From Janthinobacterium sp. (GTDB taxonomy: Bacteria > Pseudomonadota > Gammaproteobacteria > Burkholderiales > Chitinibacteraceae), in assembly GCA_025360045.1 (NCBI GenBank), contig JANYCY010000057.1:1-64000 (forward strand): DNA of 64,000 nucleotides. Direction: 5' to 3'. Below are positions 4,717 through 61,556 of this stretch, in pieces (within the stretch, counting starts at the first letter, position 1; each line of letters starts with the position of its first letter). Position numbers and translations under genes: made by a program. Under the pieces are notes generated by a model. The model saw only the letters and a program-made list of their open reading frames with translations, was not told the DNA's origin and searched no databases.

Positions 4717-7700
4717 ATGACCCGCCCCCTCAGTCTTCATGCAGAATTACAAAACCAGCTCAAACAACGCATTCTGATTTTGGATGGCGGCATGGGAACG
4801 ATGATTCAAGCTTACGATTTGCAAGAAGCCGATTATCGCGGTACGCGTTTTGCCGATTGGGCTTGTGATGTAAAGGGCAATAACGATTTGCTGGTGCTAA
4901 GTCAGCCGCACATCATCGCTGAAATCCACCAAGGATATCTGGATGCGGGCGCGGATATTATCGAGACCAATACCTTTAACGGCACCTCGATTGCCATGGC
5001 CGATTACGAAATGGAAAGCCTCGTTTGGGAGCTAAATTTTGCTGCTGCCAAGCTGGTTAAAGAATTATGCGTGGCACAAACCGCCAAAACACCGAATAAG
5101 CCACGCTACTGCGCTGGGGTTTTAGGGCCAACCAACCGCACCTGCTCGATCAGCCCCGATGTAAACGATCCGGGCTATCGCAATGTGACCTTTGATGCGC
5201 TAGTTGAAAGCTATTTAGAGGCCATCGACGGCCTCGTGAAAGGCGGCGCGGATATCCTGCTGGTTGAAACGATTTTCGACACGCTAAACGCCAAAGCCGC
5301 GGTATTCGCGATTAAGCAGTATTTCCGCAGAAATAATATTGCCAAAGACGATCAACTGCCGGTGATGGTTTCCGGCACGATTACCGACCAATCTGGCCGC
5401 ACCTTAACCGGCCAAACCACCGAGGCGTTTTACAACAGCCTGCGCCACTCAGACGCCATCAGCTACGGGCTGAACTGTGCGCTGGGGCCAGATTTGCTGC
5501 GTCAGTATGTAGAAGAAATGAGCCGTATTTCTGACAGCTTTGTTTCAGTACACGCCAATGCAGGCTTGCCTAATGCCTTTGGCGGCTACGACTTAGACCC
5601 AGAGATGATGGCCGAGTCGATCAAAGAGTGGGCGGCATCGGGCCTGATCAATATCGTTGGTGGCTGTTGCGGCACCACGCCAGCCCATATTGCCGCCATG
5701 TACCAAGCAGTAAAAGACATCGCACCGCGCGCCCTGCCTAAGATTGAGGCCAAATGCCGCCTCTCTGGCCTAGAGCCCTTTAATATTGGGGATGAAGATT
5801 TATTTGTGAATGTGGGTGAGCGCACCAACGTTACCGGCTCCAAAGCCTTTGCGCGGCTGATTTTAAATGGCGATTATCCACAGGCCTTGGTGGTGGCGCG
5901 TCAGCAGGTAGAAAACGGCGCGCAAGTGATCGATATCAATATGGACGAGGGCATGTTGGATGCCCATAAGGCCATGGTCACCTTTCTGAACTTAATCGCT
6001 GCCGAGCCAGATATCTCACGCGTACCGATTATGATCGACTCATCTAAATGGGATGTGATCGAGGCGGGGCTGAAGTGCGTGCAGGGCAAGTGCATTGTTA
6101 ATTCGATCTCAATGAAAGAAGGCGTAGAAGCCTTTAAACACCACGCCCGTCTGGTCAAAGACTACGGCGCAGCGGTGATCGTCATGGCCTTTGATGAAGT
6201 GGGTCAGGCTGACACTTACGCCCGCAAGATCGAAATCTGTGAAAAAAGCTACCGCATTCTGGTCGATGAAGTGGGCATGGACCCGGCCGATATTATTTTC
6301 GACCCCAATATCTTTGCCGTGGCCACAGGAATTGAAGAGCACGCCCGCTACGGCCTCGACTTTATCGAAGCCACCGGCTGGATTCACCAAAATCTGCCAC
6401 ACGCCAAGGTCAGCGGCGGCGTATCGAATGTCTCGTTCTCTTTCCGTGGCAATAATAAGGTGCGCGAAGCCATCCACGCCGTTTTCCTCTATCACGCCAT
6501 TAAAAAAGGCATGACGATGGGGATTGTGAACGCGGGGGCGCTAGAAGTTTACGAAGAAGTGCCGCGTGAGTTGCGCGATATTATTGAAGACGTGGTGCGA
6601 ATGTTACCCGCCGGAACCAGCGCCGGAGCACCGCTCACCGAGGGCAATCTAGATGTCACCGAACGCCTGATCGAAATTGCCGAGCGCTTTAAAGGCGACG
6701 CAAATCAAGCCAAGGGTGAGGATTTAAGCTGGCGCAATGGCACGCTGCAAGAGCGCATTACCCACGCGCTGGTGCGCGGCAATACCACCTATATTCTGGA
6801 AGACGCCGAAGAAGCGCGGCTTGCGGTAGAGCGCCCGATTCATGTGATTGAAGGCGTGCTGATGAACGGCATGAACCACGTAGGCGATTTATTTGGTTCC
6901 GGCCAGATGTTTCTGCCGCAGGTGGTGAAATCCGCCCGCGTGATGAAGGCCGCCGTGGCCCACCTAGAGCCGTTTATTGAGGCAGAAAAAATCGCCATGG
7001 GCCTGCAAGACGCGCCCGCCAAGGGCAATATCGTGATGGCAACGGTGAAAGGCGATGTACACGATATCGGCAAGAATATTGTGGGCGTGGTACTGCGCTG
7101 CAATAACTACAAGGTGACCGACCTTGGCGTGATGGTACCGGCACAAAAGATTCTGGACACCGCCAAGGAAATTGGCGCAGATATGATCGGCCTATCCGGC
7201 CTGATTACCCCAAGCCTAGAAGAAATGAGCCATGTGGCCAAAGAAATGCAGCGCCAAGGCTTTGATATTCCGCTGCTGATTGGCGGAGCTACCACGTCCA
7301 AAGTGCACACCGCCGTCAAAATTGAGCCGGGCTACGCCAATGGCCCCGTGGTGTATGTGCCGGACGCCAGCCGCGCGGTAGGCGTATGCTCCAATCTATT
7401 AAGCGACGAGCTAAAGCCCGCCTTTATGGAAAAGCTGCGCGCCGAATACCAGAATATCCGCACCATTCATGAGAACAAAGGCAAGAGCAAGCTACTACCG
7501 ATTGCCACCGCCCGTGCCAATAAATTTGAGATCGATTGGGACAGCTACACCCCGCCCAAACCTAAGCAGCTGGGCGTGCTGCGCTTTGAAAAAGTACCTC
7601 TTGCCGATATCGCCCCCTATATCGACTGGAGCCCCTTCTTTAACGCTTGGGAGCTGGCCGGGAAATATCCGCGCATCCTCACCGACGAAGTGGTTGGCGA

Positions 7701-8466
7701 GGCTGCAACAGCCCTATTTGCCGACGCCCAAGTGCTGCTGGCGCAAATGATAGAAGGCGAGTGGGTACAAGCCAACGGCGTAATCGGCCTCTTCCCAGCA
7801 AACAGCGTGGAGGACGATATTGAAATTTATCACCCAGACAGCGGCGAAAAGCTAATGACTTGGCACAATCTGCGCCAGCAAAATGCCAAGGCGGCAGGTA
7901 AGCCTAACTGGTGTCTGGCTGACTTTATTGCACCAAAAGACAGCGGCGTAACTGACTATATCGGCGCGTTTGCCGTAACGGGCGGGCTGAATATTGACCA
8001 GCATGTAGAGCGCTTTGAAAAAGCCGATGATGATTACAACGCCATTATGGTGAAAGCCTTGGCCGATCGTTTTGCCGAAGGCTTTGCCGAATATATGCAC
8101 GAGAAAATCCGCAAAGAGCTATGGGGCTATGTGCCGGATGAAAACCTGCATGTGGATGATTTAACCGACGAAAAATACCAAGGCATCCGCCCCGCCCCCG
8201 GCTACCCCGCCTGCCCCGATCACACGCCAAAAACCGGCTTGTTTAATCTGATCGACCCGGGCAGCATCGGCATGAGCCTCACCGAGGGCTACGCCATGCT
8301 GCCTACCGCAGCCGTCAGCGGCTTCTACTTCAGCCACCCCCAAGCTCAATACTTTGCCGTGGGTAAAATTGAGAAAGATCAGGTGGAAAGCTACGCAACA
8401 CGACGTGGGGTAACAGTTGAGCAAGCCGAACGCGATTTGGCGCCTAATCTGGGATATAACGCCTGA
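4717..8466 (+). CDS. metH: Cobalamin-dependent methionine synthase
   Basis: The enzyme transfers a methyl group from 5-methyltetrahydrofolate to homocysteine through methylcobalamin. All four modules are present in about 1249 aa (E. coli MetH is 1227). The homocysteine-binding barrel has zinc ligands Cys254, Cys317 and Cys318 (NCALGP and [10 protein letters not shown]). The pterin-binding barrel follows ([12 protein letters not shown]). The B12 domain has DVHDIGKN, whose His at about residue 782 is the lower cobalt ligand. The C-terminal AdoMet reactivation domain has [12 protein letters not shown]. The frame stays open for 138 codons upstream, overlapping the divergent qor gene. I choose the ATG at 4717 because AAGG lies 9 bases before it and homology begins there. 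No cobalamin or SAM riboswitch is visible in the leader. Confidence 0.97.
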
Positions 8467-8492
8467 TTTTGTGGGTGGATAATTTACTCAAA

Positions 8493-8552
8493 ACAAACCC
8501 AAGTCTTGAACCACGGAGGGCACAGAGAACACGGAGGAAAACCTATTTTCAA
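8493..8552. repeat. CACAGAG-family dispersed repeat, half copy
   Basis: CAAACCCAAGTCTTGAACC followed by ACGGAGGGCACAGAGAACACGGAGG matches the left arm of the palindromic repeats at 14108-14227 and 21382-21503, with CCACGG in place of CCACAG. The right arm is missing. Confidence 0.75.
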
Positions 8553-8599
8553 CTAGGCCATTTATTATGGGTTTGAGTAGTTTCAACCTCAGCCAAATA

Positions 8600-8854
8600 A
8601 ATATATATCGCGGCTCTCTACACGGGGCTTCAAATCCCCTTGAAGCCGCGACACGAGGAATAAGCGGCTCGGGGTTTCGGAAAAGGGGTAGCGGCTTGCT
8701 CCCGAGCAGCCTTTTTCGCCGAGCCGATTATCCGCAGTGAGGGGCCTTCGTGTTTTTGAGGTTGCGGTTTTGCTTACTTTCTTGGCCGTTCAGAAATTAA
8801 ATACTTCGCGGGGATGCCGCACCTAAATCAAGGTGCCGAAGGCACTAAAAAGAT
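8600..8854. repeat. Dispersed ~240 bp intergenic repeat, copy 2
   Basis: This copy begins with a block like CTCTACACGGGGCTTCAAA, has AAGCGGCTCGGGGTTTCGG in the middle, and ends with CCGCACCTAAATCAAGG and GTGCCGAAGGCACTAAAA. The same order is seen at 28592-28840, and the right-hand two thirds at 1-172. Together with the half copy at 8493-8552 it fills the 487-base gap between metH and the next gene. A terminator for metH is not obvious here. Confidence 0.82.
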
Positions 8855-56738: not shown

Positions 56739-57488
56739 TCACACTCCATCAACGCCGCTTGGCGTTACATCAAAAATTTCTTGGTAAGCAATATACTGCA
56801 TCAACATCATTACAGGCAGCGCAACGAGCAAGCCTAGAAATATCGTAAATGCCGATAAAACAAACAAGCCCAAAGAAATCAAACCACTGAGTAAAAAAGC
56901 CTGCCAATTACGGTAAACACCCGAAAAAGAGAGCTTCATCGCCTCTGTTGGGCTATACCCCTTAAAGAGCACTAAAGCAGGTGCAAACCAAATCGCACAC
57001 ATCACGGGCGTCATTAAAATAATGCTCAATGAAGTATGCAAGTAAAGGGCTTTCATCTCTTCTGGGCTAGGTAAGCTGCCCGCTGGAATATCCGCAAGGC
57101 TAGGCTGACTACCAAATAAGCTTAATATCAGCGTAACCAACATTGCAGCAACAACATTAATAAAGCCAATAAAAAGTAATGGTTTTACTTCACCGCGAAA
57201 AGCAGTAAATAAATCCAGAGGGCCAATTCTATTACCCGAATCACATTGTTTAGCCGCCAAATAAACACCAGCGGATAGCACGGGGGAGACCAAGGTATAA
57301 GCCAAAGCACCCACCGCAGGCAGCACGCCGGCCAATAACGCTAAAACAAAAAACTGCAATGCCAGCACAATCCACATGCCAGGCTGACGACGAAACAATT
57401 TAAATCCCTGCACATACCAATGCCATCCACGGCCAGCCACAAGGCGACGTGGCTCAGGCAATAGATCAATGACGTTATCTTTTTCCAT
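56739..57488 (-). CDS. BPSS1780-like membrane protein
   Basis: This is a 249-residue inner-membrane protein with about six hydrophobic segments. The N-terminal cytosolic part PEPRRLVAGRGWHWYVQGFKLFRRQPG is typical of the BPSS1780 family of betaproteobacteria, which has no known function. A conserved FKGYSPTEAMKLSF stretch lies near residue 190. GGGA lies about 6 bases before the ATG at 57488; the 28 upstream codons are rejected. It is directly followed by dgkA with a one-base gap, which suggests a membrane-lipid or envelope context, as inference. Confidence 0.8.
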   Translation of the reverse strand: MEKDNVIDLLPEPRRLVAGRGWHWYVQGFKLFRRQPGMWIVLALQFFVLALLAGVLPAVGALAYTLVSPVLSAGVYLAAKQCDSGNRIGPLDLFTAFRGEVKPLLFIGFINVVAAMLVTLILSLFGSQPSLADIPAGSLPSPEEMKALYLHTSLSIILMTPVMCAIWFAPALVLFKGYSPTEAMKLSFSGVYRNWQAFLLSGLISLGLFVLSAFTIFLGLLVALPVMMLMQYIAYQEIFDVTPSGVDGV

Positions 57489-57617
57489 TATTTTCCCACT
57501 CGTACTCCGGCAAGGCTTGAAGGATACGTGAACCCTTAACTTACTCAAAGGTAAACATAACAGCCTGCCCAACTTGAGGCTTCCTTACTAAATCAAAGCG
57601 AGGTTTAGGATGATTTC

Positions 57618-57815: not shown

Positions 57816-59009
57816 TTATGCAGCGACACGCTTTAAAGCATGACGAGCAATCATCAGCTCTTCATTGGTAGGGATGATGTACACAGGAACACGACTGCTT
57901 GGCAGAGAAATACAACGCGCTTCACCTGAGCGCTTGGCATTTGCTACTTCATCAATTTCCACGCCTAACCAGCGCAATTCATTACATACCGTGGCGCGAG
58001 CAATATCGTCGTTCTCGCCAATGCCTGCAGTAAACACCAGCGCATCCAAGCCTTGCATCGCCGCAGCTAAAGACGCGGTTTCACGCACTACACGGTGAGC
58101 AAAGTAATCAACAGCAAATTTAGCACGTGGATCTTTGCTAGCGTGCAAATCGCGCATATCGCTAGAAATACCTGACATACCCAATAAACCTGATTTTTTG
58201 TAGATGAGTTCTTCAATTTGTGAGGCATCCATTTTCAAATGGCTCATAAAGTGCAGAATCAAAGCAGGATCAATCGTACCGCAACGAGTGCCCATAGGCA
58301 GGCCTTCCAAGGCGGTGAAGCCCATGGTAGTCGCCTGACATTCACCACCCAGTAAAGCAGCCATCGACGAACCATTGCCCAAGTGAGCCACTACCGTGCG
58401 ACCCGCTGCCGCTTTGGCATCAATCGCAGGCAATACGCTGGCAATAAACTCATAAGAAAGGCCGTGGAAGCCATAGCGACGAATACCATGCTGTTCGCTA
58501 AATTCGTAAGGCAAGGCGTATTGCTGCTCGATTTCTGGCTGAGTGCGGTGAAACGCAGTATCAAAGCAAGCTACTTGCGGCACGGTAGGCAATAGCTGAG
58601 CCAAAACGCGCATCGGCATAATATTGTGCGGCGCATGCAGTGGCGCTAGCGCAATCGTTTCATCCAAGCCTGTCAATACTTCTTCAGTAATCAGAACGGG
58701 GTGACAAAAGTTTAAACCACCATGCACGACACGATGGCCAATCGCGGCAATGGAGCGGCCTTCGATATGGCTATTGAGCCAAGCAAGCATATGACGCAGT
58801 GCAGAGTCGTGGTTCTTAGGCATATCTGCCGGCATAGATTCGGAAACCAGCTTATTGTCATCCGCATCTTTAGCCACAAATTTAGGATCGACATAAATGC
58901 CGTCTGCTAAGCCTTTAAACAGCAAGACAGGATCTGCTGCGGTGGTTTCAAACAGGGAAAATTTGATGCTGGACGAACCGGCATTGATAACTAGAACCAA
59001 CTCACTCAT
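57816..59009 (-). CDS. ackA: Acetate kinase
   Basis: AckA converts acetyl phosphate and ADP to acetate and ATP, or the reverse. The 397-residue protein (E. coli 400) shows the sugar-kinase-fold phosphate motif VINAGSSSIKFSLF at the N terminus and signature GHRVVHGGLNF near residue 87. It also has FDTAFHRTQP, HLGNGSSMAAL near residue 205 and FTAGIGEND near residue 320. It is monocistronic; no phosphotransacetylase gene (pta) is adjacent. Its substrate acetyl phosphate is the product of the phosphoketolase encoded at 29-31.4 kb. Confidence 0.96.
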   Translation of the reverse strand: MSELVLVINAGSSSIKFSLFETTAADPVLLFKGLADGIYVDPKFVAKDADDNKLVSESMPADMPKNHDSALRHMLAWLNSHIEGRSIAAIGHRVVHGGLNFCHPVLITEEVLTGLDETIALAPLHAPHNIMPMRVLAQLLPTVPQVACFDTAFHRTQPEIEQQYALPYEFSEQHGIRRYGFHGLSYEFIASVLPAIDAKAAAGRTVVAHLGNGSSMAALLGGECQATTMGFTALEGLPMGTRCGTIDPALILHFMSHLKMDASQIEELIYKKSGLLGMSGISSDMRDLHASKDPRAKFAVDYFAHRVVRETASLAAAMQGLDALVFTAGIGENDDIARATVCNELRWLGVEIDEVANAKRSGEARCISLPSSRVPVYIIPTNEELMIARHALKRVAA

Positions 59010-59383
59010 AAACTACTCCTTAGTTTTTCACTGACCTCTGCACAGCTCGTCGCACAGCGGATAAATTTATTAGTGATGAACACCGCACAAGCAAGCGTTC
59101 ATCGTTTTCAGTATCTTGCTCAAAAATAATACACCTCAGCGCTTGTAAGCTCAGACCCAGCATGCAACAAGCATTCACTACGCCAAATTATGCTGAGCAC
59201 GCTCACCTGCTGCGGTAATATCCATTGAAATCGATTGGTATTGCTCGCTGTTCTGCCGAATATTAGGAACTGGCATGCTGCACTGCAATGGAATAATTAC
59301 TGCTGCATATTTTAAGCAGGACTAAAAAGACCCGTATTGGTCAAAATCAAGCTAATTCGCCCATAAATAGGTGCATATTCACC
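59010..59383. other. Divergent intergenic region of ackA
   Basis: About 370 bases between ackA and the lipoyl-like gene. No repeat of the local families, terminator or clear -35/-10 pair was recognised. Confidence 0.4.
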
Positions 59384-59857
59384 ATGACCGCATTCACTAC
59401 CCACCTAATCTGCGTGCCCGAGCTAGAAAATACTGCCACCGTCAGCGGCTTGCATATTTTGCCTGGCAAGCATGTCCAGAGTAATACACCGCTGCTTACC
59501 TTAAGCAGTGGCGGAGTTACAATTGAAATTTGTGCTCCAGAAGCAGGCTTAGTTTCACACCTCATGGTGTCTCTTTGCGAAACCGTTGCCTGTGGTGATT
59601 TATTGCTGCAAATGGAAATCGAAGAAGCACCTGATGTTTTTGGTACAGAAGCCGCCTTTATAAGCGCCAGCCAAGTCGCTTGGCCAGAAGAAACACCCGC
59701 CATACTTAGCGTTAGCCCGCAAGCAGCCCAATTTGCAGCAAGGCTAGGGGTCGACCTCAGCACCGTCGTGGCTCGAGGTAAATATATTGAAATGTACGAT
59801 GTAGAAGCACATATACGATCAGTCATGCTGCAATGGCAAGCTGCAGACCATCACTAG
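59384..59857 (+). CDS. Standalone degenerate lipoyl-like plus E3-binding-like protein
   Basis: This 157-residue protein looks like the non-catalytic front end of a 2-oxoacid dehydrogenase E2 subunit. Residues 1-80 read as a biotin/lipoyl-type fold (VPELENTATVSGLHILPGKHV, then IEICAPEAGLVSHLMVSLCETVACGDLLLQM). The lipoyl-lysine hairpin (usually DKA or similar) is replaced by SSGGVT, so no lipoylation is expected. Residues about 105-148 match the peripheral subunit-binding domain (SPQAAQFAARLGVDLSTVVARGK in parts, then DVEAHI). No acyltransferase domain follows. It is monocistronic and divergent from ackA. It could dock to E3 or another partner as a regulator; this is inference. Confidence 0.7.
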   Translation: MTAFTTHLICVPELENTATVSGLHILPGKHVQSNTPLLTLSSGGVTIEICAPEAGLVSHLMVSLCETVACGDLLLQMEIEEAPDVFGTEAAFISASQVAWPEETPAILSVSPQAAQFAARLGVDLSTVVARGKYIEMYDVEAHIRSVMLQWQAADHH

Positions 59858-59931: not shown

Positions 59932-60213
59932 CTATTTTTTTTGTAGCTGCTCCATAATCGCAGCCGGCTCTTGGCTCACCGCCAACACCGCCCGCACCAG
60001 ATTAAAAGCAGTACTTGCCTCATTAGGATGCTTGCCATACGACACCACACTGGCATGCTTCCAGCCTGCAGCCAGTAAAGCATTACGCTTAAAAGTGGTT
60101 CCCTCAATGCCACCACCCCCTAATTGCATTAACGCTTGTTCAATCAAGACATGCGGCAGAGGTGTGCGAGAGATAATATTAAAATGGTCTGGAATAACTT
60201 CATCAAATTGCAT
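59932..60213 (-). CDS. Hypothetical protein, 93 residues
   Basis: This is a small protein I do not recognise. It begins MQFDEVIPDHFNIISRTPLP, has a GGGGIEGTTFKRNALLAAGW stretch in the middle, and a helical, charged C terminus ending QLQKK. AGGAG lies 7 bases before the ATG at 60213, which supports a real gene and this start over the frame to 60234. No signal or membrane segment is present. It is convergent with the lipoyl-like gene. Confidence 0.6.
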   Translation of the reverse strand: MQFDEVIPDHFNIISRTPLPHVLIEQALMQLGGGGIEGTTFKRNALLAAGWKHASVVSYGKHPNEASTAFNLVRAVLAVSQEPAAIMEQLQKK

Positions 60214-60433
60214 GGACTTGCTCCTGATTGACACGGCATTGACGTCTCATTGCCCCTTAATCTGAATTGCAAAAAAGGAAAATGGGGCTGATTTTTCTAG
60301 CGGCTGTTTTCAATCTTAGTAAAGACCCGAGCCAAATCCAGCAATTCAACGCCCTGCGGTCGGGAGATCCTTTGCTCCCCCTTAAAAAAACACTACAAAA
60401 TTCAATCATGGACGATGCACTTAGCCCAATAAA

Positions 60434-60485: not shown

Positions 60486-61556
60486 TTAAATATGCACTTT
60501 GGCAATCGCGCGACGATCAACCACCGCCTTGGCTAAATCTGCCAGCATGGTTTCAGTTTGATCCCAGCTAATGCAGCCATCAGTAATTGACTGACCATAG
60601 GTCAATGGCTTGCCTTCTACATGGTCCTGACGACCACCCACTAGGTGGCTTTCAATCATGACACCAAATACCGCGTTATTGCCTCTAGCAAGCTGACCGC
60701 ACACATCGGCGGACACTTCAACTTGGCGACGGTAATCTTTGCTGCTATTGGCGTGACTAAAATCCACCATAATTTTTTGTGGCAAGCCTACAGCCGCTAA
60801 ATCGGCCATCGCAGCACGCACATGATTCGTATCAAAATTAGGCTCTTTACCACCACGTAAAATAATGTGGCAATCAGGGTTGCCGCCTGTCGCCACAATG
60901 GCCGAGTGGCCCATTTTGGTTACCGACAAGAAATGATGTGACTGGCTAGAAGCGCGGATTGCATCCAGCGCAATACGCAAATTGCCGTCAGTACCATTTT
61001 TAAAGCCAACTGGGCAAGATAAGCCTGAAGCCAGCTCACGGTGCACTTGGGACTCGGTAGTGCGAGCACCAATTGCGCCCCAGCTCATTAAATCAGCCAT
61101 ATATTGTGGCGTGATCATATCGAGGAATTCACCGGCGGTCGGCATGCCATCGTTGTTTAAATCAACCAATAATTTGCGTGCAATACGCAAGCCATCGTTG
61201 ATATTAAAGCTGCCATTTAGGTAAGGATCGTTAATCAACCCCTTCCAACCCACGGTGGTGCGCGGCTTTTCAAAATAAACCCGCATCACGATTTCTAAAT
61301 CGTCTTTATGCAGCTCACGTAACACTTTGAGCTTAGCGCCATACTCATGGGCAGCCTCGGTGTCGTGAATCGAACAGGGGCCGATCACCACTAAGAGACG
61401 GTCATCTGTGCCTTGTAGGATGCGCTGAATCGCTTGCCTCGTTTCAAAAACCGTGACAGAGGCAATTTCGCTGACGGGGAATTTTTCCATCACCGCAACA
61501 GGGGGAAGTAGCTCTTTAATTTCTCGGATACGGACATCATCTGTTTGATATTGCAT
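60486..61556 (-). CDS. aroG: 3-deoxy-7-phosphoheptulonate synthase (DAHP synthase, type I alpha)
   Basis: The enzyme condenses phosphoenolpyruvate with erythrose 4-phosphate, the first step of aromatic amino acid synthesis. The 356-residue protein (E. coli AroG 350) has the family stretches VVIGPCSIHD near residue 57, RVYFEKPRTTVGWKGLINDP near residue 92, SWGAIGARTTESQ near residue 158, VGFKNGTDG, and VDFSHANSSK with metal ligands. The N-terminal region that gives feedback inhibition is present; which amino acid inhibits it cannot be told from reading. AroG, AroF and AroH are similar, so the symbol is by family. Confidence 0.93.
   Translation of the reverse strand: MQYQTDDVRIREIKELLPPVAVMEKFPVSEIASVTVFETRQAIQRILQGTDDRLLVVIGPCSIHDTEAAHEYGAKLKVLRELHKDDLEIVMRVYFEKPRTTVGWKGLINDPYLNGSFNINDGLRIARKLLVDLNNDGMPTAGEFLDMITPQYMADLMSWGAIGARTTESQVHRELASGLSCPVGFKNGTDGNLRIALDAIRASSQSHHFLSVTKMGHSAIVATGGNPDCHIILRGGKEPNFDTNHVRAAMADLAAVGLPQKIMVDFSHANSSKDYRRQVEVSADVCGQLARGNNAVFGVMIESHLVGGRQDHVEGKPLTYGQSITDGCISWDQTETMLADLAKAVVDRRAIAKVHI

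Follow-up and report, generated by a model that had tools for sequence, protein, structure and literature searches.

The window, a 64,000-nucleotide stretch of a Janthinobacterium sp. genome (GTDB family Chitinibacteraceae), encodes a 157-amino-acid protein that resembles the front end of an E2 subunit of the 2-oxoacid dehydrogenases and that is probably an undescribed regulator. We refer to it as pseudo-E2. Its gene lies at 59384..59857 on the forward strand, from an ATG start through the stop codon. The pseudo-E2 family spans two related bacterial families, the window's own (f1) and a second one (f21), and we found no earlier description of it: the available portions of the open-licence literature gave no account of such a bacterial protein, nothing that links Chitinibacteraceae with lipoyl, and nothing under "E3 binding domain-containing protein." As a tentative best explanation, pseudo-E2 may be an E2 mimic that cannot be lipoylated and that acts, possibly depending on oxygen, as a decoy at the core of pyruvate dehydrogenase, at the branch point to acetate.

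A preliminary description of this locus had read the protein as a remnant of E2 with a lipoyl-like domain and a peripheral subunit-binding domain (PSBD), and this reading held up. (Features of the protein are on the forward strand.) Pfam's Biotin_lipoyl family (PF00364) matches residues 20-76 of the window protein (E = 2.1e-5; 24.7 bits, with a cut-off of 22.1), which corresponds to a lipoyl-type domain at 59441..59611. A linker (59633..59701) separates it from a degenerate PSBD (59705..59818). Of the two domains, only the lipoyl domain scores above the cut-off in the window protein: E3_binding (PF02817) matches residues 111-133 (59714-59782) weakly, at 15.4 bits, below the cut-off of 23.7. 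Among 19 family members that were scanned with Pfam at E ≤ 1, all 19 match PF00364 and 14 match PF02817 (best E value, 4e-6). Overall, the profiles support the assignment of both domains. The acyltransferase domain is missing, as had been stated: Pfam returned PF00364 and PF02817 only, and the protein ends at residue 157.

The profile scores also favor the E2 subunit of pyruvate dehydrogenase (E2p, or AceF) as the nearest relative. The best NCBIfam models are two for pyruvate dehydrogenase E2 (40.4 and 35.6 bits), followed by one for 2-oxoglutarate E2 (34.9 bits), and all of these scores are far below the models' cut-offs. When a profile of 19 relatives was compared to solved structures, the best match was E. 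coli E2p (PDB 7b9k), in a single 71-bit stretch that covers both lipoyl domain 3 and the PSBD; the best 2-oxoglutarate-type E2 reached 41 bits. The likeness to E2p lies in the order of lipoyl domain, linker, and PSBD. Unlike E2p, pseudo-E2 lacks the lipoyl lysine, the docking arginines, and the acyltransferase domain, the charge of its PSBD is inverted, and it has a new strand with an H-x-x-C motif. AlphaFold2 gave a mean pLDDT of 46 for the whole protein and of 40 for residues 1-86, in each case from an input alignment of two rows only, and these models lend no support to the two domains. An antisense open reading frame (59347-59826, reverse strand) was also considered and was rejected: its Pfam matches are at chance level only (E = 0.12 and 0.13).

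We aligned 46 members of the family (37 from f1 and 9 from f21) with 11 E2 controls, of which two are from the window genome and nine are the family profile's best E2 matches in the order. None of the 46 members has a lysine at the lipoyl-lysine column, whereas all 11 controls do. The members have glycine (21), aspartate (18), asparagine (3), serine (2), or glutamate (2) instead. In the window protein, the hairpin reads SSGGVT (59504..59521), as the preliminary description had reported, and G44 (59513-59515) replaces the lysine. Just three of the 46 members have a lysine within four columns of this position, and in B. stearothermophilus, a lysine that was shifted by one place escaped lipoylation (PMC6270654, a review available to us in part). 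Because it is not lipoylatable, pseudo-E2 should be unable to carry acyl groups.

The lipoyl-type domain is acidic, with a net charge of -14 to -8 in the members versus -9 to -6 in the 11 controls. According to the accessible part of one study, E2 cores bind acidic patches of lipoyl domains at a basic entrance (PMC8421416), and this attraction is why a decoy at the core is our first choice. In such a mechanism, oxygen would determine whether pseudo-E2 is made; the acidic pseudo-lipoyl domain and the H-x-x-C surface of the protein would bind a basic surface in pyruvate or acetate metabolism, of which the site for lipoyl domains on the pyruvate dehydrogenase core is the likeliest; and the decoy would lower pyruvate dehydrogenase flux while acetyl-CoA goes to acetyl phosphate and acetate. 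The hairpin does not fit as well. Its first acidic position is glutamate in all 11 controls and is glutamate or aspartate in 3 of the 46 members; the second is aspartate in 9 of the 11 controls and is aspartate or glutamate in 11 of the members. Because both acidic positions are mostly lost, a close copy of the contact with the E2 core is disfavored, and these counts make the decoy reading slightly less likely.

Control of bacterial pyruvate dehydrogenase is thought to act mainly through transcription and small molecules. If the decoy reading is correct, bacterial pyruvate dehydrogenase would be held back at the protein level by a copy of one of its own subunits. More broadly, a dedicated accessory protein from a dead E2 front end would add protein-level control, and it would show the conversion of a carrier domain into an interaction module.

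The position of the gene opposite ackA, in acetyl metabolism, had been pointed out from the window, and it recurs across most of f1. In the window, acetate kinase (ackA; 57816..59009, reverse strand) is the divergent neighbor, and an aroG-type DAHP synthase (60486..61556, reverse strand) is the convergent one. Either ackA or pta-ackA is divergent from the pseudo-E2 gene in 34 of 37 f1 genomes, including the window's. In 12 of these 34 loci (L034, L036, L037, L039, L042-L044, L046, L049, L053, L062, and L064), ackA and the pseudo-E2 gene are separated by a pta-type gene, which we presume resembles a MaoC-Pta fusion; this gene is absent from between the two in the window's genus. On the opposite side, 23 of the 37 genomes, again including the window's, have aroG no more than about 2 kb away. 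The three exceptions to the ackA linkage belong to one genus, g7 (L047, L048, and L050), in which the pseudo-E2 gene follows argH, away from ackA. In f21, aroG is near the pseudo-E2 gene in 8 of 10 loci, and the sequence read around these loci showed neither ackA nor pta. The ackA link, although strong, is limited to f1. All nine genomes of the window's genus also encode a conserved hypothetical protein of 100 amino acids (59932-60234 in the window, reverse strand) in the interval that separates pseudo-E2 from aroG; in the other genera, the stretches read did not show it.

Upstream of the gene is an FNR/ANR-like box, TTGGTCAAAATCAA (59337..59350, forward strand), 33 bp from the start codon. 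Of the 37 f1 loci, 34 have the form TTGG-N5-ATCAA in the 150 bp ahead of the gene, as compared to a mean of 0.05 and a maximum of 1 in 60 rounds of shuffling; the case for the box is this conservation over ten genera, with the caveat that relatives are not independent trials. The 34 loci with the box are exactly those that adjoin ackA or pta-ackA, and the three without it are those of g7. None of the 10 f21 genes has TTGG-N5-ATCAA upstream. The 3' end of the box is 21-124 bp from the start codon of pseudo-E2, and its center is 65-706 bp from the divergent start. The FNR consensus is TTGAT-N4-ATCAA, and partial matches occur among FNR sites (PMC3688515, in the part available). This canonical form was not found upstream in any of the 37 f1 loci, and because position 4 is G in all 34 boxes, FNR itself is not established as the regulator. 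Within the window, a looser pattern, TTGRYNNNNATCAA, has three matches, which is not exceptional, as 10 of 100 shuffles reach as many. TTGGYNNANATCAA occurs 13 times in the genome (control, 1), and according to a rough script, 10 of these 13 occurrences are inside frames, including the window's own by way of the antisense open reading frame.

The window genome does encode an FNR-type regulator with an N-terminal cysteine cluster (named from its sequence). Canonical FNR boxes occur at 14 places in the genome, versus 4 for the reversed control pattern, and one is before an adhE-like gene (a name assigned by reading the sequence). At another locus (L163; G000:C19 near 48274), a single canonical box is shared by divergent fnr-like and hemN-like genes (also named from their sequences), which suggests that FNR is autoregulated in this genome. 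For pseudo-E2, the upstream box is the one feature that possibly ties the protein to oxygen. The most specific version of our proposal, in which a lineage-specific lipoyl-domain decoy is switched by an FNR-type regulator along with the acetate genes and blocks substrate channeling within the core of pyruvate dehydrogenase under oxygen shortage, is a speculative one that we think unlikely to be right in full. Closer to the gene, GGTGCATATTCACC (59370-59383) is an imperfect inverted repeat that abuts the start codon and does not vary among the nine genomes of the window's genus; in a locus from another genus (L021), GTGAATATTCAC lies two bases ahead of the start codon. The GGTGCATATTCACC repeat could be an operator, or it could merely overlap the ribosome-binding site.

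The same genomic context could be explained if pseudo-E2 acts on Pta or AckA as an adaptor or regulator, with the E2-derived domains serving as a generic protein-binding scaffold and with pyruvate dehydrogenase left untouched. The linkage on the ackA side is more widespread than the linkage to aroG on the other flank, and the box goes with the ackA-linked locus. However, the protein persists in the three g7 genomes and in f21, where this linkage is missing. The f21 gene is by aroG and does not have the box, which counts against the decoy reading as well: the link to acetate does not hold everywhere, and part of it may reflect inherited gene order. We rank this explanation second, behind the decoy at the core, and consider it rather unlikely.

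The preliminary description had instead proposed that the protein could use its subunit-binding domain to take up the place on E3 or E1 where E2 docks, and so modulate the 2-oxoacid dehydrogenases. The PSBD-type domain is indeed E2-like, and the window genome also encodes E2p, a lipoyl-bearing E3, and the 2-oxoglutarate-type E2 (E2o). But the PSBD docks on E1 and E3 via charged side chains of helix 1, and this docking is described as electrostatic (PMC6270654 and PMC9974300, each available in part), and the charges are what pseudo-E2 has lost. At the first arginine position, the members have alanine (37) or leucine (9), while the controls have arginine (10) or lysine (1); in the window protein, Ala115 (59726-59728) stands where the first docking arginine would be. 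At the second position, 43 members have alanine and one each has serine, leucine, or glutamine, while 10 controls have arginine and one has alanine. The third position is arginine in 5 of the 46 members and in all 11 controls, with an adjacent gap that makes the alignment less sure. The net charge of the PSBD ranges from -7 to -1 (mean, -3.3) in the members, as compared to +1 to +3 (mean, +2.5) in the controls. With the first two basic positions gone in all 46 members and the charge inverted, ordinary docking on E3 or E1 is unlikely, and we now consider the proposal improbable. It would need a different binding surface, through which 2-oxoacid dehydrogenases might still be modulated.

Besides E2p, three kinds of known proteins are partly comparable to pseudo-E2. 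First, MRPS36/KGD4, the E3 adaptor of eukaryotic 2-oxoglutarate dehydrogenase, is not, to our knowledge, derived from an E2 front end. The likeness is of role only, as it is a small, noncatalytic accessory, and it is described as having no prokaryotic orthologues (PMC9974300, in the part available). Second, eukaryotic pyruvate dehydrogenase contains E3BP (protein X), which is also a noncatalytic homologue of E2 and includes both a lipoyl domain and a PSBD; its core domain is inactive, and it anchors E3 on the core (from the accessible text of PMC6270654). Unlike E3BP, pseudo-E2 has neither a core domain nor a lipoyl lysine. Third, single-domain biotin/lipoyl attachment proteins possess the attachment lysine. 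They are also small, separate barrel-sandwich proteins, but the match to pseudo-E2 is weak (PDB 1z6h, 23 bits), and they do not have a PSBD.

Besides its losses, the family has gained a signature in the first strand: all 46 aligned members have H-[LM]-[IV]-C-x-P, with the histidine, cysteine, and proline invariant. In the window protein, the strand reads TTHLICVP (residues 5-12; 59396..59419). None of the 11 E2 controls has histidine or cysteine at these positions. The position of the signature leucine is aspartate, glutamate, glutamine, or asparagine in all 11 controls, and the position of the cysteine is lysine or arginine in six of them and leucine or isoleucine in the other five. We infer that the H-x-x-C strand forms a new conserved surface. 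In g7 (L047, L048, and L050), the signature is a variant, either ISHMICAP or TSHLICAP. An additional cysteine is found in the linker of 29 of the 46 members. The invariant histidine and cysteine, together with this frequent linker cysteine, might form a metal or redox site, which would make pseudo-E2 a small sensor or carrier, and an FNR-like box upstream would suit such a role. However, just one cysteine is invariant, and the linker cysteine is missing from 17 of the 46 members, including the window protein, so we doubt that this is the explanation and give it little chance.

Homologues of the protein exist in both families. A family-wide profile search identified pseudo-E2 in all 43 genomes and all 11 genera of f1, with one match each (E ≤ 1e-30), and an initial search of 61 genomes gave a standalone match with an E value of 1.8e-12 or better in each of the 37 from f1. 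A relative is present in all 10 of the sampled f21 genomes; in the tenth of these (G335), the signature is present, the lysine and all of the PSBD arginines are absent, and aroG adjoins the gene. In a sample of 399 genomes from the order, among the matches listed, those in short frames belong to f1 and f21 and the others are in E2-sized frames. When TTHL[IV]C[AT]P was searched for as a DNA pattern, 18 of the 399 genomes matched (10 from f1 and 8 from f21), and the reversed control pattern had one match. This pattern is stricter than the family, as the window genome itself goes unmatched, along with two more genomes of f1 and two of f21, and its lack of matches in 369 genomes from the class does not prove that the family is absent elsewhere.

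Across nine genomes of the window's genus, the median dN/dS of pseudo-E2 is 0.109 (25 of 36 pairs were usable), with a median dS of 1.8, which is close to saturation. The ratios for ackA and aroG are 0.032 and 0.029, respectively, and one of seven neighbors (the open reading frame at 56739-57572; dN/dS = 0.125) is equally loose. The hairpin is the least constrained region of the protein (dN/dS = 0.22, from 14 of 36 pairs). These ratios indicate that the gene is under purifying selection, and because it is also retained in every f1 genome, pseudo-E2 is a real gene and not a chance reading frame. That both known functional sites are lost might suggest a decaying E2 fragment without function, but the retention in 43 of 43 genomes and a dN/dS of about 0.11 led us to reject a pseudogene, and with the new invariant residues as well, decay is extremely improbable.

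In a FastTree phylogeny of 165 columns, the 46 members fall into a single clade (support, 0.87), and a second clade (0.91) comprises ten E2p-type sequences; this tree was rooted on the genome's single E2o, so its topology cannot tell which E2 is nearer. The E3 of the window genome (L140; G000:C88:17500-27500, at 6871-8649) carries a lipoyl domain of its own at the N terminus, in which the DKA motif is intact, and its gene adjoins aceE-like and aceF-like genes.
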